NCBI GenBank assembly: GCA_026388335.1
Contig: JAPLJZ010000043.1
Span: 1-33,648 of the forward strand
Direction: 5' to 3'
Origin: Deltaproteobacteria bacterium
Lineage (GTDB): Bacteria; Desulfobacterota; Syntrophia; Syntrophales; UBA8958
Length of the DNA stretch: 33,648 nt
The notes beneath the pieces were generated by a model. That model ran no database searches. It was not told where the DNA came from and worked only from the letters and a program-made list of their open reading frames with translations. Below, one piece after another: positions 1-12,000 of the stretch; positions within the stretch are counted from its first letter, which is position 1; each line of letters begins with the position of its first letter. Position numbers and translations under genes: made by a program.

Positions 1-1950
1 AAATTCCGGATACAGTTTTTTCACACAATCAGGACAGATGCTATGGCTGAATTCTGCTTCTGAGTGATCCTTTATGTATGATTCTATCTGGTTCCAGTAA
101 CCATTGTCGTCACGAATCTTCTTACACGAAGCACATATGGGAAGTAATCCGCTCAATAATTTTACTTTATTAAGGGCGCTCTGGAGTTCGAGGATAAGCC
201 TTTCCCGCTCTTCCTCCGCCCGCCTAAGCATAACGATGTCCGCCTCCAACATTTGATTGGCTTTCATCAGCTCTTCCGTGCGTTGGGCGACGATCTCCTG
301 GAGTTCCGAGTTCATGCGCTGCAGTTCTTCCTCCATGCGCTTGCGCTCGGTAATGTCGCGAACCGATTCAATGGCGCCGATGATGCCGCCGCCGCTGCCG
401 TATAAGAGACATGCTTTCCCCCAGAGGACACGCATCTTCCCCCTTACCGGGACATCAGCCTCGGCCCAAATAACATCCCCCTCTTTCCTGACGAAAGAAT
501 ACTGCTTCTCGATCTCCTCATCGAATGCCAATGCCAGATCGATGATCAGCGGTCTCCGCACCCCGTAAAAAGGCAAGGAATATTCATAATCGCCTTTCCC
601 CAGGATATCCGCCGCGCTAACCCCGGTCATCTCTTCCATCGCCCGGTTCCAGGCCGTGACCTTGCCCTGCCGGTCGATAACGAAGGTGGCGTCGGGGAGG
701 AAGGCGATGATATCCGCAAGATGGCGTCGTGATTCCCGGAGCGCCTCGTCAGACCTCTTTTGCTCTGTGATATCCTCATAGACAACGACGATTTCCCCAG
801 CTGTCAAGTTATCGCCTACGACGGCGGTATTCAACCGGCAGGTAATCTCCCGTCCGTCTTTGCGCCGGAGGAGTATATCCAGATTGTAAGTTCTCTGTTT
901 CTCGAGGGCGTCATAAACAATCCTGCCTGTTTTCGCATAATCCTCGCCGCTCCTGTAAAGAACTCTTGTCTTTTGCCCAATCAATTCCTCCGGCTTCCAG
1001 CCGAATACGTCTTTAACGGCATTATTGGCAAAGATGATCCGGCGATCCCGCAAACCGACAACAGCGTGAGGGATGGCATCCAGGAGTGATGCTCTCAGTG
1101 CCTTTTGCTCCTCCAGCTTCTGTCTAACTTTTTTAATTTCTGTGACATCCATCGAATTTCCAAGGATCGCCCGTTTCCCCTCGTAGCTGATGGAGGTGAC
1201 CGTCTCCATGATCCACCGGGTATTTCCTTCTTGGGTGATCATCCTGAATTCGTACGGGGAGGTGCGCCTTCCCCTGAGCATATCGACGGCATTCTTCGTC
1301 ACCCCTTCCCTGTCCTCGGGGTGGACGATCTTCAGGGATTCCATCCCGATCAGCTCCTCAGGGGCATAGCCCGCATATGAGGCGGCATTTTTGTTCAGAA
1401 ACCGAAAATGACCGTCCTGCACAATATAGACGCCGGCAAACGACATTTCCGCAAGCGTTCTATATAGTTCTTCCGCCTGTTTGCGCTCGGTAATGTCGTT
1501 GAGCACGCCGTGCGCGCCCATAAACCTGCCGTCTTTCATAATAGCCTTGCTCTTTGTCCGTACCCAGATAATATCGCCGGATTTATTGATTACTCTGTAT
1601 TCCAGAGGATATTCTATCCCTTGGCAGAGTTCCCGAAACCGCTTTGTCAGTAGACTTCTATCATTTTCGTGGACATGATTGATGAAGTTCTTCCCGATAA
1701 TATCATCCGGGTCGTATCCCATTACATCCTTTACCAGCGGACTGAAATGGACGATCACCCCCTGACTGTCGATTTCATAGATGACGTCACTGCTTAATTC
1801 CAGCAGGGTTCGATATTTCCCCTCGCTTTCACGCAATAATTCCGACACCCCATTGGGTTCGCTCGTTGACTTATCAGCATCAGCTAGCCGCGCGCGTAAC
1901 GCAGTCAATTCTTCAATGAGCTGCCTTTTTGTCTTGGCTTCATCCTTCAT
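1..1950 (-). CDS. Four-PAS sensor protein with C-terminal Cys4 module (3' end off the window)
   Basis: The frame is open for 650 codons and leaves the left edge without a stop, so the C-terminus is missing or nearly so. Four PAS/PAC units are visible at about residues 40-160, 165-280, 285-400 and 405-540. The PAC ends read NDITERK, MDVTEIK, EDITEQK and RDITERK. A coiled coil follows (about 537-600), then a Cys-rich tail starting LPICASCKKIRDD with Cys606, 609, 639 and 642. This tail is recurrent at the end of delta-proteobacterial PAS and receiver proteins. No histidine kinase, GGDEF or HTH domain is seen, so the output is unknown; a signalling partner is inferred. No membrane segment is visible, so it is probably cytoplasmic. 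The ATG at 1950 has a GGGAGG Shine-Dalgarno eight bases upstream. A terminator-like hairpin lies just upstream. Confidence 0.85.
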   Translation of the reverse strand, partial: MKDEAKTKRQLIEELTALRARLADADKSTSEPNGVSELLRESEGKYRTLLELSSDVIYEIDSQGVIVHFSPLVKDVMGYDPDDIIGKNFINHVHENDRSLLTKRFRELCQGIEYPLEYRVINKSGDIIWVRTKSKAIMKDGRFMGAHGVLNDITERKQAEELYRTLAEMSFAGVYIVQDGHFRFLNKNAASYAGYAPEELIGMESLKIVHPEDREGVTKNAVDMLRGRRTSPYEFRMITQEGNTRWIMETVTSISYEGKRAILGNSMDVTEIKKVRQKLEEQKALRASLLDAIPHAVVGLRDRRIIFANNAVKDVFGWKPEELIGQKTRVLYRSGEDYAKTGRIVYDALEKQRTYNLDILLRRKDGREITCRLNTAVVGDNLTAGEIVVVYEDITEQKRSDEALRESRRHLADIIAFLPDATFVIDRQGKVTAWNRAMEEMTGVSAADILGKGDYEYSLPFYGVRRPLIIDLALAFDEEIEKQYSFVRKEGDVIWAEADVPVRGKMRVLWGKACLLYGSGGGIIGAIESVRDITERKRMEEELQRMNSELQEIVAQRTEELMKANQMLEADIVMLRRAEEERERLILELQSALNKVKLLSGLLPICASCKKIRDDNGYWNQIESYIKDHSEAEFSHSICPDCVKKLYPEF

Positions 1951-1983
1951 ATCCGGGGCCTCCCTATTAATTTCATCCGGCAA

Positions 1984-2018
1984 CAAAAAAACCCCGCTCT
2001 CTTTTGGATATCGGGGTT
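1984..2018 (-). terminator. Intrinsic terminator hairpin in front of the PAS gene
   Basis: On the minus strand AACCCCG (2018-2012) pairs with CGGGGTT (1996-1990) and is followed by a run of T. It ends only about 34 bases before the ATG at 1950, which leaves no room for a whole promoter between the two. It is either the end of the upstream unit (2262-2804) or an attenuator in the leader of the PAS gene. Confidence 0.6.
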
Positions 2019-2190
2019 CATTACATCATTCCATTCAAGCCTCCCGGACTAAGGGGCAAGGGGTTAGTTGATCAGGCTACATGGACTATTCTATAGTGAT
2101 GAGACATTCTAACACGATTATAAATTGAAATCTACGCTGAAGAATAAAAATAGTGAAAGGTTGAATTTTAGTTGGTTATCAACGTTTACT

Positions 2191-2235
2191 GATTGGCAAA
2201 AAGTTTTTATCGCGACTCAAAACTTTTTGCCAATC
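2191..2235. repeat. 17-bp perfect inverted repeat (stem-loop)
   Basis: The arm GATTGGCAAAAAGTTTT (2191-2207) is exactly complementary to 2219-2235, with an 11-base loop. It starts 27 bases beyond the stop of the 2262-2804 gene, so it could protect or end that transcript. No T-tract follows on the minus strand, so it is not a standard Rho-independent terminator. Confidence 0.75.
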
Positions 2236-2261
2236 ATGAGGGAGTCAATATATCCTACTGT

Positions 2262-2804
2262 TCACACCTTGGCCTCCGGCCGCGCCCCGGATTTTGCCGT
2301 CTCCTGTGCCCCGTTTGTCTCTTCCTTTGTCCAGCCGATGCCGCAGGCCTGTAAGAACTGCGCCCACTGGCTGTCGTTGAAGGCGGTGCAGGTCCGGCCG
2401 TATTCCGCCGCCGCTTCCCGGCAGGTCTTCAAGATCTCGGACGGGTCCTTGCGGTGCTGTATTCCGGTCCGGCAGGTCTCCATCATTTTCAAGGCGCAGG
2501 TGAACGAGGCCGTTGTCAGACCTGTACATCGCTGCTGCTGTTCCAGGCAGGCGCTAAACAGCTTCCGTACTTCCGGTTTTGAAGCGGCGGCACCCGGCAT
2601 GAAACCGTTCCGCCGGGGTGCCCATAATTTCCATACCTCCGGCGCCGGCCATGCCGGGCTTCCCTCCATACCGCCGTTTCCTGACTTTGCGAACGTCCTG
2701 TCGATCATGTCCAGCCACGGTTTGGACACCATTTTGTAGAAGTCGAACGCGGTGGCGACTTCCTTATGACCTGCTTTATTTTCCGACGATGCCGATGTGT
2801 TCAT
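2262..2804 (-). CDS. Small phasin/PhaE-like protein (tentative)
   Basis: The protein has 180 residues. The start at 2804 is chosen because AGGAGG lies six bases upstream; an earlier in-frame ATG at 2879 has no such site. There is no signal peptide or membrane segment. The N-terminal part contains AFDFYKMVSKPWLDMIDRTF, an amphipathic helix-like stretch reminiscent of polyhydroxyalkanoate granule proteins (phasins, PhaE). The middle has several cysteines in a helical context (about residues 85-150), and the end is charged and low in complexity. A PHA-synthase-like gene lies elsewhere in the window (23752-25560), which makes a granule role possible but unproven. It may form its own unit, bounded by the 17-bp hairpin downstream. 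The family assignment is weak; that it is a real gene is well supported. Confidence 0.6.
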   Translation of the reverse strand: MNTSASSENKAGHKEVATAFDFYKMVSKPWLDMIDRTFAKSGNGGMEGSPAWPAPEVWKLWAPRRNGFMPGAAASKPEVRKLFSACLEQQQRCTGLTTASFTCALKMMETCRTGIQHRKDPSEILKTCREAAAEYGRTCTAFNDSQWAQFLQACGIGWTKEETNGAQETAKSGARPEAKV

Positions 2805-2903
2805 GGATTGCCTCCTGCTTTTTCGAGGCAATATAGTGAATTGCCGATCACTGATCAATATCAATTGATTTCGGAGCAACTCTCAGGAAAGAACCCGTAT
2901 ATG

Positions 2904-4640
2904 TCAGGAGGGGCTGTCCGTCAGCGACCGGAGATAAGTCATTAGATTTGTTTTCTTATGGATCAGTCCAAGCTTCCTGCGGATATTGTCCTTATGGAAT
3001 TCAATCGAACGGGCCGAGACGTTGAGCAGCTCGGCGATCTCCTTGGCGGTCTTGCCGTTCCGGACCAGACCGGCGATCTGGATTTCCTTGGGGGTCATAT
3101 TCATGAACCGGGACGTGAGGGTTTGCAGAAAGGGCGAGATGACACTTTTCAAATTATCCTCGATCAACTGAAGATAAGCGGCCTGGGGTTCCGTCAATCG
3201 CTCCCGTTTTAATTTCTCCACAAAAGGCAGCACCAGCTTCCGGACATTGGTCAGCACCTGTTTTTCCAGGTCCGTCCGATCCTCCTCCCGGTGCCTGAGT
3301 AACACCTTCAAGGCCGTATTCACCTCCTGAAGCCGCCGGGTTTCCTCGGCCAGCTGCTGGCGCTGGTCTTTCAGATTTTCCAGGGCCTGTTTGAGTTCAG
3401 TGATATCCACCAGGGAGGCGACGCTCATGGTCGTACCGGGAATCATCGCCACCGTGGCCAGTACATCCCGTAATTTCCCGTTCTTGTCCGCAAACCGGTA
3501 TTCATAGGAGGCGGGGGCCGAGGTTGGATCTATTCGCCGGCGCCGGTGATATGTCTTCATCTTCCGGAGGTCCCGGGGGGAGACGAACTCCGTCCAGGTC
3601 TTACGCCCTTCAATGTCCCGGCGGTCCAAACCCGACTGTCTTTCAAATTCGCCGTTCACTCCGGCGATTGTCATGTCCTCATTGACGAGCATCATGGCCG
3701 TGCCGGTGGATTCAAAGATCGTCCGATAGCGGATCTCCGTCTCCTGAAGACTTTGCTGGGCCCGGACGCTCTCCGTCACATCCGACACCATTTCGATGGC
3801 GCCTAAGATGCGTCCATCTCGGTCTTTCAGGGGGGAGGCGACGATCCGGTAATTCCGGATTTCCTGTCCCCGGGGCGTAGCCGCCATCCCTTCATGGACC
3901 TGGCCGTCCTGCAAGGATCTGATCGTCGGACAATAGGCGCAGACGGTCTTTCGGGGGGGATCATTGAAGGCCCGGTAACAGAGAGGTTTTCGGGTGAGGT
4001 CAATGTCGGGAAACCAGGTCCGCATCTGGCCGTTCAGGCTCAGGATCTCCATCGCAGGGCTGATCAGGGCGATCCCGACGCCGATATGCTCCACGATGCT
4101 CCGGTTTGTTTCTTCGGAAGCCCGGAGTTCCTCCTGGGTGCGTCGGTGTTCAACAATCTCCGCCTTTAGGCGCTTTTGCTCCTCGATCAGTTCCAGGGTT
4201 CGTTCCGTAATGAGCTGCTCCAGGTGCATCTGCTTTTCATGGAGCTTCTCCTCCATGTGCTTCCGCTCCGTGATATCCAGGATCAAGGCCTGTTTCGCCA
4301 CCACGACCCCCGCCTTATACAGGGGTGTGTTGATGATCTGGTACCAGCGGTTGTCCTTGGGGCTCAGGACTTCCCAGTGGACCGTTTCCCCCTGGAAAAC
4401 CCGCTGGTTCACGCACCACGGACAAACGGAGTCGAGACCGTGGAGAACCTCATAGCAAAGCCCCCCCGTGGCGTCGTAGCCGGACCGGCGGATGAGCGGT
4501 TCATTCATGAATTCGATGCGGTAATCCTTTGAACAGACGTAGATCATGCCGTCAAAGGCGTTGATCATGGCCTCTAGTCGTTCCTTTGCCTCCTGAAGGT
4601 CCGCATATTGCGTGTGAGTATTTTGCATAATATTAACCAT
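2904..4640 (-). CDS. PAS-domain transcriptional regulator with LuxR-type HTH and Cys-rich PAS domains
   Basis: The protein has about 578 residues and no membrane segment. Three PAS units lie at about 24-126, 180-290 and 302-415, followed by a coiled coil and a C-terminal LuxR/GerE helix-turn-helix (about 514-560: MTPKEIQIAGLVRNGKTAKE, then SARSIEFHKDNI). The first two PAS domains each carry a Cys-x(10-12)-Cys-x2-Cys set (Cys62/73/76 and Cys221/234/237), suggesting metal, Fe-S or redox sensing. The ATG at 4640 overlaps the stop of the upstream kinase, implying translational coupling. GTG at 4664 and ATG at 4628 are alternatives, and none has a clear Shine-Dalgarno. As the last gene of the ercA-kinase-regulator unit, it is probably the DNA-binding output. 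It lacks a receiver domain, so how the kinase would reach it is unclear. Confidence 0.85.
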   Translation of the reverse strand: MVNIMQNTHTQYADLQEAKERLEAMINAFDGMIYVCSKDYRIEFMNEPLIRRSGYDATGGLCYEVLHGLDSVCPWCVNQRVFQGETVHWEVLSPKDNRWYQIINTPLYKAGVVVAKQALILDITERKHMEEKLHEKQMHLEQLITERTLELIEEQKRLKAEIVEHRRTQEELRASEETNRSIVEHIGVGIALISPAMEILSLNGQMRTWFPDIDLTRKPLCYRAFNDPPRKTVCAYCPTIRSLQDGQVHEGMAATPRGQEIRNYRIVASPLKDRDGRILGAIEMVSDVTESVRAQQSLQETEIRYRTIFESTGTAMMLVNEDMTIAGVNGEFERQSGLDRRDIEGRKTWTEFVSPRDLRKMKTYHRRRRIDPTSAPASYEYRFADKNGKLRDVLATVAMIPGTTMSVASLVDITELKQALENLKDQRQQLAEETRRLQEVNTALKVLLRHREEDRTDLEKQVLTNVRKLVLPFVEKLKRERLTEPQAAYLQLIEDNLKSVISPFLQTLTSRFMNMTPKEIQIAGLVRNGKTAKEIAELLNVSARSIEFHKDNIRRKLGLIHKKTNLMTYLRSLTDSPS

Positions 4641-6381
4641 TTTGTTTTTTATCCAGTACCTCACGAATGGTTTTGGCCAGTACGCTCATCCGGATCGGCT
4701 TGGTAATCAACCGGCTGATGCCGAGGGCGGTAAGTTTTCCCGGATCCTCTTTTTCCTGAAATCCTGAACAGAGCACGATAGGAATGTCCGAGCGCATACG
4801 TCTTATTTCCCCTGCCACATCGAAGCCCGTCAGATGAGGCATGGTCTTGTCCGTAATCACAAGATCGAAGGCGCCGCTACCCTCCTTGAATACCTCGATC
4901 GCCTTCACAGGGTCGGTTTCCGCTACGACCAGGTAACCAAGTTCCTCCAGCAGCTCCCTGCTCAGATCGACCACCATTTTTTCATCATCAATAAACAGGA
5001 TCGTTTCGCCTCCCCCCGGCAAGAGGGCTTCATCCATATCCTTGCCACCTTCCGCCTGCTTTACCAGCAACGGTAGGTAGACCCTGAAGATGGTTCCCTT
5101 GCCCACCTCGCTGTACACCCTGATCTCCCCGCCGTGATCCTTGACAATCCCGTGCACGACGGCGAGCCCCAAACCCGTCCCCGCTCCCTTTTCCTTGGTT
5201 GTAAAGTAGGGTTCGAAGATTCTCACGAGATTCTCCTGCGGGATTCCCTGCCCGGTATCCCTGACGGTCAATACCAGGTAATGGCCGTGCCTTATCGGCG
5301 GACGATGCAAGCGGTCATCCGCATTGATAACGACTTCTTCCAGGCCGATCTCCAGGACGCCCCCGGTCTCCCTCATGGCATGCCCGGCGTTCGTGCACAG
5401 GTTGATCAGCACCTGATGCATCTGCGTGGGATCGGCCATGATGACATCGGCAGTCTCTTCGATCTTCTGAATTATTTCTATCGTCGTCGGCAGAGATGCC
5501 CGCATAAAGTTGAAAACTTCTTTAACGATAGGAGCGAGTGCAATGGGCTTTTTTTCCTGCTCGGCCTTGCGACTGAAGGTGAGGATCTGCCGCACCAGGT
5601 CCCTTGCCCGCTCGGCGGCCTTGAGCACCTGTTCCATATGGTGGTGGACTTTCGGCCGGTCCTGCACCGCCTTCAGGCATAGTTCCGAATAACCCATAAT
5701 GCCGCTGAGGATGTTGTTGAAATCATGGGCAATACCTCCCGCCAACGTCCCAATGGCTTCCATCTTCTGGGCCTGGATGAGTTGGGTTTCAAGCTTTCTG
5801 TGATCCTCTTCCGCCCGTTTGCGCTCGGTAATATCCCGGAATATTCCCTCGACCCCGGCAAAATTACCGGCGTCGTCAAAGTACAGGTGGCTGTTCGTTT
5901 CCACCGTGACGGGCATCCCGTCCCTTCTTTTCAGGATCACTTCATAGTTGGTGACGCTTCCCTTTTCTTTGATTTGCCTGAGGAGTTCCGCGCGTTTCTC
6001 CGGGTAATAATATAAAGTTTCTGCGATGGGTTTGCCGAGGCATTCATCGAGAGACCCATATCTGAACAGGATCAAAAAACTGGGGCTTGTCATGATGAGA
6101 TTACCCCGGGCATCACTGCGGTAGAAGACATCCTGGATATTCTCGATGACGCTGCGGTAGTTGGCTTCACTTTCCCTGGCTTTACGGCGTTCCTCTTCCA
6201 GGTCTTCCATGAGCTTCTGCAAGGCCTGGGTTCTCTCTTCCAGGTCTTTTTTTTGCGCTTCGAGCTGATCGAGCCGCCTGCGCAGCTCCGGGTAGTAGCT
6301 CTTGCTTATGGACCTTTCCCCAAGGCCGATGATCTTCTGCCGAAGCAGCCTGATGTTGTCGTGGTCAGTAAGCTCGTTCAT
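4633..6381 (-). CDS. PAS hybrid histidine kinase, ErcS'-like
   Basis: The protein has 582 residues and is cytoplasmic. The N-terminus includes [20 protein letters not shown], which I recognise as the N-terminal signature of ErcS'-type kinases linked to ErcA. Then come a coiled coil (35-72), one PAS/PAC domain (73-190, ending [11 protein letters not shown]), HisKA with the H-box [11 protein letters not shown] (His219), and HATPase_c with DTGQGIP and GTGLGL (about 318-440). A C-terminal receiver spans about 459-578 with phosphoacceptor Asp511 (VITDKTMP) and Lys537-region KPI. All catalytic boxes look intact. The start lies inside the 3' end of the ercA-like gene (17-bp overlap) and its stop overlaps the start of the PAS-LuxR gene, so the three genes are translated as one unit. 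By analogy with pseudomonads it may control alcohol or aldehyde oxidation; that is inference. Confidence 0.9.
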
Positions 6382-7537
6382 AACATCCCTGTATATCTTC
6401 TACAGAGGCGACCCTGGGATTGGTGGCCAGGCAGGGATCGTTGAAGGCATTCTCGGCCAGGGCGGGGATGTCCTCTCTTTGCAGGTTCAAATCCCGCAGA
6501 CGCGGCCGTATCCCCGCGTTTTCCCGCAAATCTGAAATGGACTGCACCAAGGCGTCCTTCTCCCCCCCGCCGGCAAGCGATTCCGTATTCAGCCCCAGTG
6601 CCCGCGCCACATCGACGTATCGCTCAGCCGCGGCGTTGAAATTGAAGTCCACGACATGTTCCAGGAGGATGGCATTGCATTCACCATGGGGCAAATCGAG
6701 CAGGCCGCCGAGGCTGTGCGCCATGGCATGCACCATGCCAAGGCTGGCATTCGAGAAGGCAAGCCCGGCGAACAGGCTGGCGAGCATCATGTTTTCCCTC
6801 GCTGACATGTTTGTCGGTTGTTCCACCGCATCCAGGAGGTGTTTCCGGATCAATCTGATCGCATCAAGCGCGAAGAGGTCGGTGACCGGAGAACTGGCAT
6901 TGGACACGTAGGCTTCAACCGCATGCGTCAGGGCATCCATACCTGTGGCCGCCGTCATGTGTCGATCCATGGTGATCGTTGTGCAGGGATCGATAAGCGA
7001 TACGTCCGGGATCACCAACTTACTGACAATGGCGATCTTGACCTTCCGGACGGTATCAGTGATGATGTCAAACTGGGATATATCTGCGGCTGTCCCGGCC
7101 GTAGTGGGGATGAAGATCAGCGGCGGCCCCGGCACCGGAACCTGATCCACCCCTTCGAAGGAGAGCACATGCATGGCATTGCTGCTTGAGATACCGATCC
7201 CCTTGGCGCAATCCATCGGACTTCCTCCCCCAACCGCGACGATTACATCGCATTGTTCCTTCCGATAAACTTGTACTCCTTCCATTACCTCGTAATCCTT
7301 GGGGTTGGGGGTTACGCAGTCGAAAACGACATACGGGATATCGGCTTTTTTCAGCGATTGTTCAACGGCACCGGTCCAACCCGCCCTCTTGACACCGGGA
7401 TCAGTAACCAGCAGTATTTTCCTGGCATTATAATTGATAGCGTATTGACCGGCGAGTTCGATCACCCCGGCACCAAAAACGAATTCCGGGGCAACGAATT
7501 TCCTCATTTCCAACTGAGAGGCAGTATCGGCATTCAT
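6365..7537 (-). CDS. ercA: ErcA-like iron-containing alcohol dehydrogenase family protein
   Basis: The protein has 390 residues, the usual length for group III iron-dependent alcohol dehydrogenases. The NAD-binding GGGSPMD motif is at 103-109. The four metal ligands expected for the family appear present: Asp201, His205, His274 and His284. The start LRKFV-like MRKFVAPEFVFGAG and the partner kinase directly downstream are typical of ErcA, an alcohol-dehydrogenase-like protein known in Pseudomonas to take part in regulating ethanol oxidation. It could still be a working dehydrogenase because its ligands are intact. The ATG at 7537 has AAGGAG six bases upstream. It is the first gene of the overlapping ercA-kinase-LuxR unit. 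An ordinary catabolic alcohol dehydrogenase is the alternative. Confidence 0.85.
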   Translation of the reverse strand: MNADTASQLEMRKFVAPEFVFGAGVIELAGQYAINYNARKILLVTDPGVKRAGWTGAVEQSLKKADIPYVVFDCVTPNPKDYEVMEGVQVYRKEQCDVIVAVGGGSPMDCAKGIGISSSNAMHVLSFEGVDQVPVPGPPLIFIPTTAGTAADISQFDIITDTVRKVKIAIVSKLVIPDVSLIDPCTTITMDRHMTAATGMDALTHAVEAYVSNASSPVTDLFALDAIRLIRKHLLDAVEQPTNMSARENMMLASLFAGLAFSNASLGMVHAMAHSLGGLLDLPHGECNAILLEHVVDFNFNAAAERYVDVARALGLNTESLAGGGEKDALVQSISDLRENAGIRPRLRDLNLQREDIPALAENAFNDPCLATNPRVASVEDIQGCYERAY

Positions 7538-7679
7538 AGGTCACTCCTTTTACCATTTTGTGCAGATGCTGTTTCATTTCCTTTGAATTCAATTAGAAAT
7601 CCGGGATGAAGATGACAAATCGGTCTGTGAAGTTTACAGGAAGAAAGCAGATAAAACAACCGAAACCTATACCCTGATA

Positions 7680-7719
7680 TTTATACCTACCCATAACAAG
7701 TCATACAAATATTATTTGT
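7680..7719 (-). promoter_or_regulatory. Candidate ercA promoter with palindrome over the -35 box
   Basis: On the minus strand TTGTAT (7708-7703), a 17-base spacer and TATAAA (7685-7680) form a moderate sigma-70 promoter for the ercA-like gene. The palindrome ACAAAT-N3-ATTTGT (7705-7719) overlaps the -35 box and could be an operator. It lies just past the aminotransferase stop, so it could instead belong to that transcript end. Confidence 0.35.
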
Positions 7720-7730
7720 TAGCCGCCCTT

Positions 7731-8927
7731 TCATGTGGCTTTATCGATTGCCTCTTCGAGCAACATGAGCCCTTCTTCCATATCTTCCTGCGTGATGTTC
7801 AGGGCGGGGAATATCCTGATCATGTTTCCTTGCGTCTGCCTGACAAACAGGCTCCTATCGAGACATCCGCCGGCAACATCACCGGCTGTTTTCTCATCGC
7901 AGAACTCTATTGCCAGAAGCAACCCTCTGCCTCGGACATCATTTATCATCTCCGGATATGCCCGCATCCACTTACGCATCCGGTCAAGGGCAAACCCGCC
8001 TGTTTTCATAACATCGGCGGAGACATGGTGGTCGAGCAAATACTTGATAACAGCGTAAGCCACTGCACAACCGAGCGGATTACCACAGTAGGTTCCACCG
8101 TGATCACCGGGCTCAAGCTTCGCGGCAACGGCCTCCGACATCGCAAAGGTGCCGAATGGGAAACCTCCTGCTATTCCTTTCGCCATGGTCATAAAGTCTG
8201 CTTCAACATTCAAAGGGCCAATCGCAAACATCGGGCCGGTTCGGCAAAACCCTGTCTGTATTTCATCTATGATGAGCAGACTGCCGTTTGCCTTGCACAG
8301 TCTGCTAACTTCTTTAAGATAACCATCGGCAGGGATTATTACGCCACCCTCGCCTTGAATCGGCTCTAAAATCAGCGCCGCCACATTGTTATTAAAGGCC
8401 CTTTTCAAGGCATCCAGATCATCATAGGGGACAAACCGGTAGTTGGGCATCAACGGGTTGTACTTCTCCCTGTGCTTAGTCTGACCTGTGGCTGATGTTG
8501 TGCTGATTGTCCGACCATGGAAGCTCTGGTCCATGGCGATCACGTCCAGCCTGCCTGTTGCTTTGCGCGCCAGCTTAATAGCGGCATCGTTCGCTTCCGC
8601 CCCGCTGTTGGAGAAAAACACCCGGGTCAGGGGTGGGGGGAGGATTCCGCTCATCAACGACAGAAGACGGGCACGCGCTGGAGAGTAAGTCAGCCCCGAA
8701 TTTGGATTCTGGATGATCTTTTTGCTCTGTTCCAGGAGCGCATCGGTGATCACCGGATGGGCGTGACCAAGGCAGGTGACTCCCCAGCCTGAGGTGAAGT
8801 CTATAAACCTGTTTCCTTCTTCATCCCAGACATGGACGCCTGCACCCCGCTCAATCGAGACAGGTATCTTTCTAAAAAATGGCGGTGTGTATTTGTCTTC
8901 TACCTGAATTGTCTTAGCGGTGGTCAT
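7731..8927 (-). CDS. Class III (ornithine/acetylornithine-type) aminotransferase
   Basis: The protein has 398 residues, the normal size for PLP-dependent class III aminotransferases such as ArgD, RocD and GabT. Family landmarks are SNSGAEANDAAIKLAR (106-121), the SFHGRT loop (135-140), LLIIDEIQTGF with Asp221 contacting the pyridine nitrogen, and Lys250 in MAKGIAGGFPFG as the PLP Schiff-base lysine. It would transfer an omega- or alpha-amino group to 2-oxoglutarate; the substrate cannot be fixed from sequence. The ATG at 8927 has AAGGAG five bases upstream. It lies 67 bases downstream of the aldehyde:ferredoxin oxidoreductase gene, in the same direction, so the two may be cotranscribed. No arginine-biosynthesis genes are adjacent, which argues against a simple argD assignment. 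Confidence 0.88.
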   Translation of the reverse strand: MTTAKTIQVEDKYTPPFFRKIPVSIERGAGVHVWDEEGNRFIDFTSGWGVTCLGHAHPVITDALLEQSKKIIQNPNSGLTYSPARARLLSLMSGILPPPLTRVFFSNSGAEANDAAIKLARKATGRLDVIAMDQSFHGRTISTTSATGQTKHREKYNPLMPNYRFVPYDDLDALKRAFNNNVAALILEPIQGEGGVIIPADGYLKEVSRLCKANGSLLIIDEIQTGFCRTGPMFAIGPLNVEADFMTMAKGIAGGFPFGTFAMSEAVAAKLEPGDHGGTYCGNPLGCAVAYAVIKYLLDHHVSADVMKTGGFALDRMRKWMRAYPEMINDVRGRGLLLAIEFCDEKTAGDVAGGCLDRSLFVRQTQGNMIRIFPALNITQEDMEEGLMLLEEAIDKAT

Positions 8928-8994
8928 TGTCGCTCCTTCTCATAGGCCTTTCTTCCATTAAATCAATGACATGCGGCGATCCCGGTAATCGTAG

Positions 8995-11187
8995 TCAAGG
9001 CCTCACCGCCAGGAGTTCGGCGAGCTTCGTCCGGGTTTCTTCCTTCAGGAACGGCCACAGACCAAGGTCCTGGAGGGTCGCAACCGTCGGGATGCCGGAG
9101 ACGTTCCAGCCCCGTTCCCGATAGTATTCCTGAACCAGCTTGGCTAACTGTTCCCGGCGGTAGTTCATCAAAATAATTCGTTTTTCCGCCGTCGCCATGC
9201 TCCGGATCGCAGCGAGGGATTTGTCCATGATCCGGGAGATTTCCCCATCGTGATAGTCCCTTTCCGCCTCGTAGAGGGCGTCGTCGATGGGGGCCAGAGC
9301 CCGGTCCGGGATCCGGTCGTAACGTCCGGTGTTACCACCATAGACCATGGCATTCATGACCCGCTGGAGATTTATATCCCGGTCCGTCTGGGCAAAGATT
9401 GACTCCCAGGTCATGTCCGTGCCCAGCATCCCGTTATAGAAGTCGGCGTAGATCTCTTGGGAAGCCGGATTGATATACTTGTCCGTATCCTTGATTTTTT
9501 CCGATTCCGGATTGAAGACATCAACCCAAGGCAGCTTACAGAGGCCCATATTATCGTTCCCCAGGCGGACCCGGGGGTAGGTGATCAAGGCCCGGGCCTT
9601 GTCCTGGAAGGTCGGGAAGGCCCCCAAGAGATCCACCTTGATAAGCCAGGCTGCGGCGTGGTGCGCTCCTATGTCGCTGGCAGCGGCATAGGAGGCCTGC
9701 ATGGACAGGGAACGGTGGGTCCGGTAGAGGGAAAAGGGAAGTCCCTTGGTCTGCATGGCGAATTTCATCAGTTCTTCCCGGGGATCGATCTTGCCGTTTT
9801 TCTTCACATATTGATCGGCAACCCAGTCGATCAGCGGGAGCATGCCCTTCCCCGCCACTTTTATCATCACTGTCTCCGGACGGGCCAATTGATGGATGAA
9901 ACTCAAGACGGCCTGTTCATTACCCCAGATGAGTTCCAGGCCATCCGTATCTTCTTTCGTGAGATAGCCGCGCTGGAAGCATTCCATGAGGAAGGCAATG
10001 ATCACGGCAGTGGTGATGGTATCGATCCCGTAATTGTCGCAATGCCAGTTGGCCTCCATGATGAATTCGGCATTCCAGATGCCCAGGTTGGAGCCGAAAC
10101 CGGCGGCGGTTTCATATTCAGGGCCATCGACCCAGACCTTGCGGCCCTTATGTTCCCCGGAAGTCAAGGTAACCCCGCCCCCTTTGGTGCAGCGGAGGTT
10201 ACAGCCGGGGAAACACCCGTCCATGCCCCGGTGATCGAAAAGGTGCTCGGCATAGAATTTCCCGGTGATTGTATCGGCATGGGGATCGGATCCCAACTGG
10301 TAATTCCTCACGGGCAGGGACTGGTATTCCTGCTTGTTCATGAAGGCAATAAGCCCGGCACTGCCCTTGCGGTGCATCCGCAGGGATTGGGGATCGACTT
10401 CCTTGACGACTTTCCCCAGCTTTTCTCCTGCCTTCTTCACCCTGTCCCAGTCGGCGGCTCCAAAGGGATTTTTTCCGCGGGGATGTTCGGCAAGAACCAC
10501 AATAGCTCCGATTTTCTTTGCGTGCATTACCGTACCAAGACCGGTGCGGCCCGCCTGCTTTGTCCGGAAGAATCCTTTGGTTTCATCTTGGATCTTTGTA
10601 GCGTCGAAATAATGGCTGTTGATGCATCCATAATTAGTTTTACCGGCCCCGGCCCCTGTTGTCAGAAAGACGAGGTTCTTCTTTTCATACCCTGCCTGGA
10701 CGAACCTCTCGGCGATTGCCCGCTCCAGATCAAATACCTGGTCCGGTACGGAGAACTCCATAATGGATATTTCTTCCCGAAAACTATCGATGACGATCAT
10801 GATCTCCGTTGGGGATTTCCCGGTAATTTCCAGGGCGTCAAAACCGGCGTATTTGAGATAGGCTCCGAAATGGCCGCCGAAATTAGAGACACCGGCAATG
10901 CCGGTCAGAGGCGACAGGGAAACGGCCATACACTTGCTCGTACCCGGAAACTGGGGAATGCCGCCTAACGGGCCGGGGGAAAAGATCAGGGGATTCTCCG
11001 GGTCGGAGGAGTTTGTCCCCGGCGAAATGCCTTTATGGAGCAGATAAAGGGCCAGACCGCGCCCGCCGATAAAATAATCCCGGATTTGCGGATCGAGGGA
11101 CGTCGGCGCGATAGTCCGGTTGTTCAGGTCAATTTTGAGGATTTGATTAGCATAGCCACGGCTGAGGGGCGATCTGGTATATTTCAT
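8995..11187 (-). CDS. Tungsten-type aldehyde:ferredoxin oxidoreductase
   Basis: The protein has 730 residues, somewhat longer than archaeal AOR (about 600). The N-terminal domain begins with NQILKIDLNNRTI and FIGGRGLALYLLH, typical of the family, which binds the pterin cofactor. The [4Fe-4S] cysteines are seen as CFPGCNLRC (Cys325, 329, 333) and Cys550 in NMGLCKLPW. The enzyme oxidises aldehydes to carboxylic acids with ferredoxin, or reduces acids, in the cytoplasm; it needs a tungsto- or molybdo-bispterin. The ATG at 11187 follows a GGAAAGG Shine-Dalgarno. The start is far from the candidate promoter, leaving a leader of about 130 bases. The aminotransferase downstream suggests amino-acid-derived aldehydes as possible substrates, which is inference. 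Benzoyl- or aryl-aldehyde substrates are equally possible. Confidence 0.92.
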   Translation of the reverse strand: MKYTRSPLSRGYANQILKIDLNNRTIAPTSLDPQIRDYFIGGRGLALYLLHKGISPGTNSSDPENPLIFSPGPLGGIPQFPGTSKCMAVSLSPLTGIAGVSNFGGHFGAYLKYAGFDALEITGKSPTEIMIVIDSFREEISIMEFSVPDQVFDLERAIAERFVQAGYEKKNLVFLTTGAGAGKTNYGCINSHYFDATKIQDETKGFFRTKQAGRTGLGTVMHAKKIGAIVVLAEHPRGKNPFGAADWDRVKKAGEKLGKVVKEVDPQSLRMHRKGSAGLIAFMNKQEYQSLPVRNYQLGSDPHADTITGKFYAEHLFDHRGMDGCFPGCNLRCTKGGGVTLTSGEHKGRKVWVDGPEYETAAGFGSNLGIWNAEFIMEANWHCDNYGIDTITTAVIIAFLMECFQRGYLTKEDTDGLELIWGNEQAVLSFIHQLARPETVMIKVAGKGMLPLIDWVADQYVKKNGKIDPREELMKFAMQTKGLPFSLYRTHRSLSMQASYAAASDIGAHHAAAWLIKVDLLGAFPTFQDKARALITYPRVRLGNDNMGLCKLPWVDVFNPESEKIKDTDKYINPASQEIYADFYNGMLGTDMTWESIFAQTDRDINLQRVMNAMVYGGNTGRYDRIPDRALAPIDDALYEAERDYHDGEISRIMDKSLAAIRSMATAEKRIILMNYRREQLAKLVQEYYRERGWNVSGIPTVATLQDLGLWPFLKEETRTKLAELLAVRP

Positions 11188-11211
11188 GTAACCTTTCCTT
11201 TTGCAGCCGTC

Positions 11212-11224
11212 CCGGCGTGGCCGG
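11212..11224 (-). promoter_or_regulatory. Small GC hairpin in the AOR leader
   Basis: CCGGC-GTG-GCCGG can fold just upstream of the AOR ribosome binding site. It might affect translation. I compared the leader by eye with what I remember of the molybdenum/tungsten cofactor riboswitch and saw no convincing match. Confidence 0.25.
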
Positions 11225-11324
11225 CCGCTTGTAATCTGATCGTGACATACCCCCGGAATATAATGGAAATACCTTCCAAAGTGCCGTCAATAATAAATAA
11301 ATCGCCGGGCTTTTCAGGGGCGGA

Positions 11325-11354
11325 AACATAGGACGATAATGTTCATTTTGTCAA
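11325..11354 (-). promoter_or_regulatory. Candidate sigma-70 promoter of the AOR gene
   Basis: On the minus strand TTGACA (11354-11349), an 18-base spacer and TATGTT (11330-11325) fit a sigma-70 promoter. It faces the AOR gene and would give a leader of about 130 bases. It sits immediately downstream of the strong terminator of the 11441-11716 gene, which supports a separate transcription unit. Confidence 0.5.
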
Positions 11355-11380
11355 TGTTTTATCTTTGATGAACGGGTAAA

Positions 11381-11423
11381 ACAAAAACCCCCTGACGAAC
11401 CGGTGTCGTCAGGGGGTTTTTGT
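11381..11423 (-). terminator. Strong bidirectional intrinsic terminator
   Basis: An 18-bp perfect stem (11381-11398 with 11406-11423) contains a CCCCC/GGGGG core and A/T tracts on both sides, with a seven-base loop. It lies 17 bases after the stop of the 91-residue membrane protein gene and should end that transcript. Confidence 0.9.
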
Positions 11424-11440
11424 AAGAGATGTCTTTGGTC

Positions 11441-11716
11441 TCAGCCGACCATGTTCTTGATCGTCGTAATGACCGGATTGGTGAACAGGGCAATCAGGAC
11501 GGTATAGAGGGCGAAAACCCCGGCAACCTCACCCGTGTACATCTTCTCATACTTGTGCTTCAGGGAGATGATGACCATCCCGCCAATAATGAGGCAACCA
11601 AGCTGGAAGTAGGGGAAGTTAGACACACCGGCTGCTGCGTATTCTGCCATCGCGAAAGTTCCCGTTAAAAGAACAACCACCATTGCCGCTACCATCGTTC
11701 CTAATGTCTTTTTCAT
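11441..11716 (-). CDS. Small exported or membrane protein, unknown function
   Basis: The protein has 91 residues. A signal-peptide-like start (MKKTLGTMVAAMVVVLLTG, likely cleavage after Ala-Met-Ala at about 24) is followed by two hydrophobic segments at about 36-52 and 64-79, joined by the charged loop KHKYEKMYTGE. It would be a small inner-membrane protein of about 67 residues after cleavage. AGGAGG precedes the ATG at 11716. It is a single-gene unit with a strong terminator downstream and a candidate sigma-54 promoter upstream. That economy suggests a tightly switched, possibly abundant product. I do not recognise the family. Confidence 0.75.
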   Translation of the reverse strand: MKKTLGTMVAAMVVVLLTGTFAMAEYAAAGVSNFPYFQLGCLIIGGMVIISLKHKYEKMYTGEVAGVFALYTVLIALFTNPVITTIKNMVG

Positions 11717-11782
11717 GATCTGTGTCCTCCTATTTGTTTTTATTTATTTTTTATTTATTTGCTTTCGTTTGACTTATCTTAA

Positions 11783-11799
11783 TGAAAAATGCGTGCCAG
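11783..11799 (-). promoter_or_regulatory. Candidate sigma-54 (-24/-12) promoter
   Basis: On the minus strand the sequence CTGGCACG-CATT-TTTCA matches the consensus YTGGCACG-N4-TTGCW at all but one position (G to T in the -12 element), with the right spacing. The predicted start near 11772 gives a leader of about 55 bases ending in an AGGAGG site for the 91-residue membrane protein. Confidence 0.55.
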
Positions 11800-11816
11800 G
11801 TTGAAAACAAACGGCT

Positions 11817-11835
11817 AATAATTTTATAAATTATT
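11817..11835. repeat. AT-rich palindrome upstream of the sigma-54-like promoter
   Basis: AATAATTT-TAT-AAATTATT has perfect 8-bp arms. It lies about 20 bases upstream of the -24 box and may be an IHF-like or operator site; in AT-rich DNA it may also occur by chance. Confidence 0.4.
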
Positions 11836-11906
11836 GATTGCAAAGGCAAATATTTTTTTATTGAGACCTCGGGAAGGGAAAAAGGGGACTTGTTTGCCCT
11901 CGGCTT

Positions 11907-11923
11907 TTGAAAGAATCTTTCAA
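11907..11923. promoter_or_regulatory. Inverted repeat, candidate activator site
   Basis: TTGAAAG-AAT-CTTTCAA has perfect 7-bp arms. It is about 140 bases upstream of the predicted sigma-54 start, the usual distance for an NtrC-type enhancer, and about 50 bases upstream of the -35 box of the rightward methyltransferase promoter. Confidence 0.4.
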
Positions 11924-11971
11924 GGTGTTGAACGAAACGACGGCAGCTTGTTTTCGGAATGGATATTTTTC

Positions 11972-12000
11972 TTTACATGCAAAGCTGCTTTCCCTATACT
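11972..12000 (+). promoter_or_regulatory. Sigma-70 promoter of the methyltransferase gene
   Basis: TTTACA (11972-11977), a 17-base spacer and TATACT (11995-12000) give a near-consensus promoter. It would start transcription about 28 bases before the ATG at 12035. Confidence 0.65.

Follow-up and report, generated by a model that had tools for sequence, protein, structure and literature searches.

An ErcA-type dehydrogenase relative and its motif-bearing kinase partner as a candidate two-gene sensory module

The gene encoding an ErcA-type relative of the iron-dependent alcohol dehydrogenases (Fe-ADHs) in our window, by which we mean the whole 33,648-nucleotide stretch of DNA analysed, is followed directly downstream and on the same strand by a partner gene, and this arrangement recurs across phyla. 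The ErcA partners begin with a motif of about 30 residues, LRxKIIGLGExSxRKSYYPELQxRLxELE, and carry several kinds of output. We interpret the window pair as a two-gene sensory module in which ErcA would supply the input, received through the motif by a PAS hybrid kinase, with interchangeable outputs elsewhere, and we put the probability of this reading at roughly three in four. The original prediction was of an ErcA, a kinase and a PAS-LuxR protein forming a three-gene, translation-coupled unit. Its three open reading frames proved real and overlapping, all on the minus strand, as judged from the sequence and the ORF coordinates (Table 1); coupling is suggested by those overlaps, and the unit itself did not hold, with no LuxR-type gene in the 45 other loci surveyed. 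What emerges more strongly is a conserved input, ErcA, that goes with a single motif and with several outputs. The motif marking the ErcA partner is new in this analysis; the earlier work had missed both it and the variety of outputs.

Table 1. Features of the ErcA locus and its upstream context, in window coordinates.
Feature	Position	Strand	Length and basis
ercA	6365-7537	minus	390 aa; Pfam Fe-ADH + ADH_Fe_C
Hybrid histidine kinase	4633-6381	minus	582 aa; Pfam PAS-HisKA-HATPase_c-Response_reg
PAS-LuxR (GerE) protein without receiver	2904-4664	minus	Pfam PAS domains + GerE
ercA end / kinase start overlap, 17 nt	6365-6381	minus	sequence
ErcA-partner motif, putative docking element	6250-6354	minus	profile match + conservation
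Aldehyde ferredoxin oxidoreductase-like protein, upstream context	8995-11187	minus	Pfam AFOR_N + AFOR_C
Class-III aminotransferase, upstream context	7731-8927	minus	Pfam Aminotran_3

Identity and distribution of ErcA

The window protein scored 612.8 bits against the NCBIfam ErcA model NF041833, passing its curated cut-off of 550, and each of its 16 other NCBIfam matches was below its own cut-off. Six other Fe-ADH matches in the same genome were 27-41% identical to it. A FastTree phylogeny built from 158 iron ADHs placed 60 ErcA rows, the window included, in one clade with an SH-like support of 100; these rows had been labelled ErcA before the tree was built, 37 by score and 23 by motif partner. 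The ErcA clade had an SH-aLRT of 91, below the 95 mark, in a smaller IQ-TREE phylogeny of 65 rows. The predicted ErcA identity is thus borne out by the model cut-off and by clade membership, and the window dehydrogenase lies outside the ordinary iron ADHs, among which its placement had been named in advance as the refutation. An ordinary catabolic ADH was considered and found no support in either tree, and a sensing rather than a catabolic role, as originally proposed, is likely.

The metal ligands (D201, H205, H270 and H284) and the GGGSxxD nucleotide motif are kept in the window ErcA, and both the ligands and GGGS-D are identical in all 60 clade rows. In place of the usual SExT stretch, the window protein has ADIS(Q): D152 is found in 97% of the ErcA clade versus 3% of 92 other Fe-ADH rows, and S154 and Q155 are each found in 100% versus 5%, positions 152 and 154 being E and T in most of the 92. 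Assuming that these metal-ligand, nucleotide and SExT residues have the roles known from FucO-type enzymes, we read ErcA as a putative metal- and nucleotide-binding protein with an altered active-site stretch. The fold and the metal site are common to ErcA and the catalytic iron ADHs (FucO, Zymomonas ADH2, 1,3-propanediol oxidoreductase), from which ErcA differs in its own clade, its own letters in the SExT stretch and its motif partner. A structure model of the window protein (mean pLDDT 89) matched solved Fe-ADHs, the nearest being alcohol and methanol dehydrogenases and the best 3bfj, a 1,3-propanediol oxidoreductase, at 44% identity. Both these nearest folds and the complete ligand and nucleotide sites are in favour of an alternative that we consider unlikely, in which ErcA is a working alcohol or aldehyde dehydrogenase, the downstream PAS protein itself senses alcohol, redox or product, and the gene overlap only sets stoichiometry; the clade-specific letters in the SExT stretch argue against it.

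Within the window's order, ErcA above the cut-off was found in only one of 155 genomes, that of the window itself; across its phylum, it was found in 19 of 395 genomes (22 genes). Named members of the clade come from Desulfobacteraceae, Fundidesulfovibrio, Spirochaetes, Bacteroidetes, Verrucomicrobia, Gammaproteobacteria, Telmatospirillum and Clostridia. Because the occurrence is sporadic, ErcA may have been acquired horizontally.

The partner motif and its association with ErcA

Of the 60 clade loci, 59 were readable and all 59 contained the motif; the strict pattern was present in 54, and the remaining five (L049, L179, L201, L209 and L210) matched the motif profile, which comprised 26 rows drawn from ErcA neighbours with the window row included (profile A1). 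The only match at E <= 0.01 in the window's own genome was the window kinase (E 3e-17, its own row being in the model). This partner is in an ErcS-like position, directly downstream of ercA and with the N-terminal motif, and is a soluble PAS hybrid histidine kinase, in agreement with the original pairing of ErcA with a sensor kinase. From the N-terminus, it consists of the motif, a long helix, and PAS (residues 74-184), HisKA (211-273), HATPase_c (317-438) and receiver (461-572) domains. The motif core is the most conserved part of the kinase N-terminus, yet is of low confidence in the monomer AlphaFold model (mean pLDDT 77, from a shallow alignment of 10 sequences), where residues 14-29 fall below 50 and are followed by the long helix into the PAS domain. 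As modelled, this N-terminus resembles what a partner-binding segment could look like.

Three genome scans for the motif covered the window's own phylum (395 genomes), the order of the Marinomonas genome G534 (244 genomes) and the phylum of the Anoxynatronum genome G543 (353 genomes), the latter two of which we take to be Pseudomonadales and Bacillota, respectively. Among the 57 places recovered, 52 lie immediately behind ErcA or an ErcA-like protein, three lie behind a broken ErcA, and two are chance matches. The own-phylum scan gave 23 places in 20 genomes, 22 of them adjoining the 22 ErcA genes above the cut-off and the last (in G160) beside an ErcA without its middle, a count that is partly circular because the motif rows came from ErcA neighbours. 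The other two scans were almost wholly held out from the motif model. For the order of G534, the motif and ErcA above the cut-off occurred in the same 18 genomes and were adjacent in 18/18, with 17 of these genomes held out and one in the model; 12 further genomes with only sub-cut-off ErcA relatives (E <= 1e-110) had no motif. For the phylum of G543, a looser threshold (E <= 0.01) gave 16 places in 15 genomes, none of these places being in the model: 12 after ErcA or an ErcA-like protein, two after a broken ErcA (L251, and L253, which is the same as L263), and two by chance, L255 being late in a radical-SAM-like protein as judged by eye and L261 within a 40-residue frame. Chance matches to the profile arise near E 1e-4 to 1e-2, as with these two and G534:C1.

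A pilot set of 30 chosen genomes had shown the same association, with 21 places in the 18 genomes with ErcA above the cut-off and none in the other 12. When 20 genomes holding ErcA loci were searched at E <= 0.01, 19 had a motif match, with 20 strong places, a weak match in G544 (the genome of L066) and the weak chance match G534:C1; G545 (L067) had none, and two extra strong places also had ErcA in front. The presence of the motif beside ErcA and its absence from genomes with only sub-cut-off Fe-ADHs count against ErcA being a working dehydrogenase next to a self-sufficient sensor.

At L247 (G160), L251 (G1001) and L263 (G857), the ErcA neighbour of the motif partner is missing its middle or all but its last ~30 residues; here the partner may act alone, or the loci may be decaying or misassembled. 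Among the weaker matches, a variant motif, LTGxxSSKKSYYVELKxK, lies beside ErcA-like proteins 41-46% identical to the window ErcA, so the pairing may predate the curated ErcA family. Loci L066, L067, L070, L254 and L256-L260, in which ErcA-like proteins stand beside variant-motif proteins of the SSKxxYYxEL type, are likely a sister branch of the ErcA pair.

A start codon giving exactly the 17-nt overlap was present in 45 of 54 ErcA-clade loci, so the ErcA-kinase overlap is beyond chance; its recurrence may be due in part to the conserved ErcA C-terminus, whose Tyr-Glu codons can supply an ATG. The gene overlaps suggest translational coupling, and ErcA is probably translated in coupling with the PAS hybrid kinase. 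Coupled translation could account for the adjacency, but not for the conserved motif sequence. As for gene order in relatives, whose absence was the other refutation named in advance, the two-gene order was found elsewhere in the phylum as well as outside it and was absent from the rest of the window's own order, and the three-gene order was not recovered at the 45 other loci surveyed.

Output variety and gene neighbourhood

Thirty-four partners, from the 46 loci with neighbours listed, were aligned and assigned Pfam domains: HATPase_c (19), HisKA (20), Response_reg (16), GGDEF (10), EAL (8), SpoIIE (3) and HD-GYP (2); 20 partners were additionally scanned singly for domains. BLAST domain probes divided the 60 clade rows into 41 kinases, nine GGDEF-EAL proteins, two GGDEF-HD-GYP proteins, three SpoIIE proteins and five rows without a class, namely L018 (HisKA by single Pfam scan), L051 (PAS domains only), and L061, L062 and L180 (contig ends). 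The 18 of 41 kinases with a receiver are an undercount, since the sequence used was truncated 1.5 kb past the motif at 17 loci. With the rows without a class left out, output changed at least five times on the ErcA tree. Behind the ErcA motif, kinases are one kind of output among several.

The neighbour survey found no recurrent alcohol genes next to ErcA-partner pairs, and a constant link of the pair to such genes was therefore dropped as an explanation. Genes resembling aldehyde ferredoxin oxidoreductase (AOR) lie beside the pair at three loci (the window, L067 and L068), and an ALDH-like family, recognised by eye, at two (L066 and L069). The AOR-like gene of the window would fit the probable strict anaerobe of the original prediction. 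The gene after the partner, scanned at 10 loci, encoded a kinase, a PALP enzyme, a B12-binding protein, a methyltransferase, trigger factor, CheW, sigma-54 response regulators (twice; L066 and L067), a histidine phosphatase and one protein without a match. A simple -24/-12 scan of the window gave no site at the threshold used, and counts of promoter-like sites (22 versus 8.9 in shuffles) and terminator-like sites (15 versus 13.4) in positions 1-12000 were of no help.

The PAS-LuxR protein matched Pfam PAS and GerE only, and the earlier description of it as a LuxR-type protein without a receiver stands. The receiver domain defines a classical response regulator; without it, the protein cannot be a classical phosphate acceptor. 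With GTG 4664 as start codon, its gene would overlap that of the kinase by 32 nt; with ATG 4640, the more likely start as read from the sequence, the overlap would be 8 nt. This overlap was seen only at the window locus; an iterated profile search found a LuxR-type ORF at one of 46 ErcA loci, the window's, although at L061 and L062 the downstream sequence is shorter than 500 nt and such a search may overlook LuxR proteins that have diverged strongly. Within the window's order, 17 of 155 genomes, the window genome included, had a match to the PAS-LuxR protein at E <= 1e-90. Among the other 16 genomes, the LuxR end was covered by the match in 11 and only the PAS part in five, and none of those 11 (of 154 other genomes in the order) had ErcA above the cut-off. 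The window's own genome had 16 other matching places, nine of which reach the LuxR end. Based on the 45 loci without LuxR and these 11 genomes, we rejected a three-gene ErcA-kinase-LuxR module; the PAS-LuxR gene is a local neighbour outside the recurring pair and may be co-expressed with it. That all three proteins form one dedicated pathway acting one after another on the aldehyde genes next to them (AOR and aminotransferase) is very improbable, the overlapping frames, the same-strand position of those upstream genes and the lack of minus-strand terminator-like sites in 7538-7730 being outweighed by the same distribution and by the missing receiver.

Cysteines are clustered in two PAS regions of the LuxR protein, in the patterns C-x10-C-x2-C and C-x12-C-x2-C (CYEVLHGLDSVCPWC; CYRAFNDPPRKTVCAYC), and may mark metal or redox sites. 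Directly after the LuxR gene, an ORF of 205 aa (2262-2879) matched nothing in Pfam or NCBIfam at E <= 0.001, and a multi-PAS signalling protein on the same strand (1-1986) runs off the window edge.

Known systems and proposed mechanism

According to the accessible part of PMC12997753, the Pseudomonas partner of ErcA is ErcS (PA1992), and ErcS' is NahK (PA1976), which is paired with NosP; the original prediction had named ErcS'-type kinases beside ErcA, an assignment that this pairing contradicts. The NahK/ErcS' model NF041831 (cut-off 1500 bits) is absent from the best 25 of the kinase's 133 matches, the weakest of the 25 scoring 87.6 bits. The same part of PMC12997753 reports that the ped cluster is repressed when either yiaY (ercA) or PP_2683 (ercS) is lost, that AlphaFold3 predicts contact between the N-terminal domains of YiaY and PP_2683, and that H281 of YiaY matters, and the accessible part of PMC7427536 describes evolved strains with yiaY mutations and fewer ethanol-oxidation transcripts. 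Such drops in ethanol-oxidation transcription in ercA/yiaY mutants argue further against a working dehydrogenase, in favour of which PMC12997753, as far as accessible, leaves open direct kinase sensing versus redox coupling with YiaY; it describes how the ADH-like YiaY takes part in Pseudomonas signalling as unresolved.

The ErcA-ErcS (PA1991-PA1992) and YiaY-PP_2683 pairs resemble the window in having the same ErcA family directly upstream of a PAS sensor kinase. In the 17 held-out genomes of the order of Marinomonas, ErcA is likewise followed by a kinase-size motif protein, the Pseudomonas side of this comparison being taken from the accessible part of PMC12997753. The window differs in belonging to another phylum, in having no PQQ or ped genes that we could see within it, and in its extra overlapping PAS-LuxR gene; other lineages differ in output, which is c-di-GMP turnover or SpoIIE.

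H-NOX is like ErcA in being one sensor family paired with kinases or diguanylate cyclases (c-di-GMP enzymes), and unlike it in sensing NO through haem with an unrelated fold. NosP belongs to the FIST type and does not have a dehydrogenase fold. The NosP-NahK pair (PA1975-PA1976) resembles the window in that a separate cytosolic sensor acts on an adjacently encoded hybrid kinase (PMC12997753, accessible part). Each of the 17 held-out genomes has one motif match, which is the ErcA neighbour. The accessible parts of PMC12997753 and PMC7427536 make no mention of the motif or of non-kinase partners, and those of PMC10891947 and PMC5125639 hold nothing further. Among the papers listed by literature searches, titles and the beginnings of abstracts likewise did not combine ErcA with GGDEF/diguanylate cyclase or with the motif, a claim limited to those texts and with the first ercA paper (Hempel et al. 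2013) outside its scope.

From co-occurrence, adjacency, conservation and the published model, we infer that ErcA docks on the motif; the signal would run from ErcA to its partner. In the two-gene sensory module, ErcA, a regulatory iron-ADH relative with its metal and nucleotide sites kept, would bind the ~30-residue motif at the kinase N-terminus, and its state (alcohol or aldehyde, metal or NAD(H) occupancy) would be passed through the long helix to the PAS domain and the kinase. The kinase would then autophosphorylate and pass phosphate to its own receiver and onward through a phosphorelay, with the overlapping PAS-LuxR gene as a local addition. The same ErcA-motif input may drive GGDEF-EAL, GGDEF-HD-GYP or SpoIIE outputs in other lineages. 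We lean, with somewhat less confidence than for the module itself, towards the broader view that ErcA is a portable dehydrogenase-fold sensory subunit, used in several phyla with one docking motif and at least four kinds of output, that places phosphorelays, c-di-GMP and partner-switching under alcohol/aldehyde or NAD(H) control.

The motif pairing extends ErcA to bacteria other than the aerobic pseudomonads, and the role of ErcA in signalling can be tested directly by mutating a short sequence that its partners share in distant phyla. A further prediction is that c-di-GMP enzymes and SpoIIE-type phosphatases are under alcohol or redox control, which would not be suggested by their domains alone.
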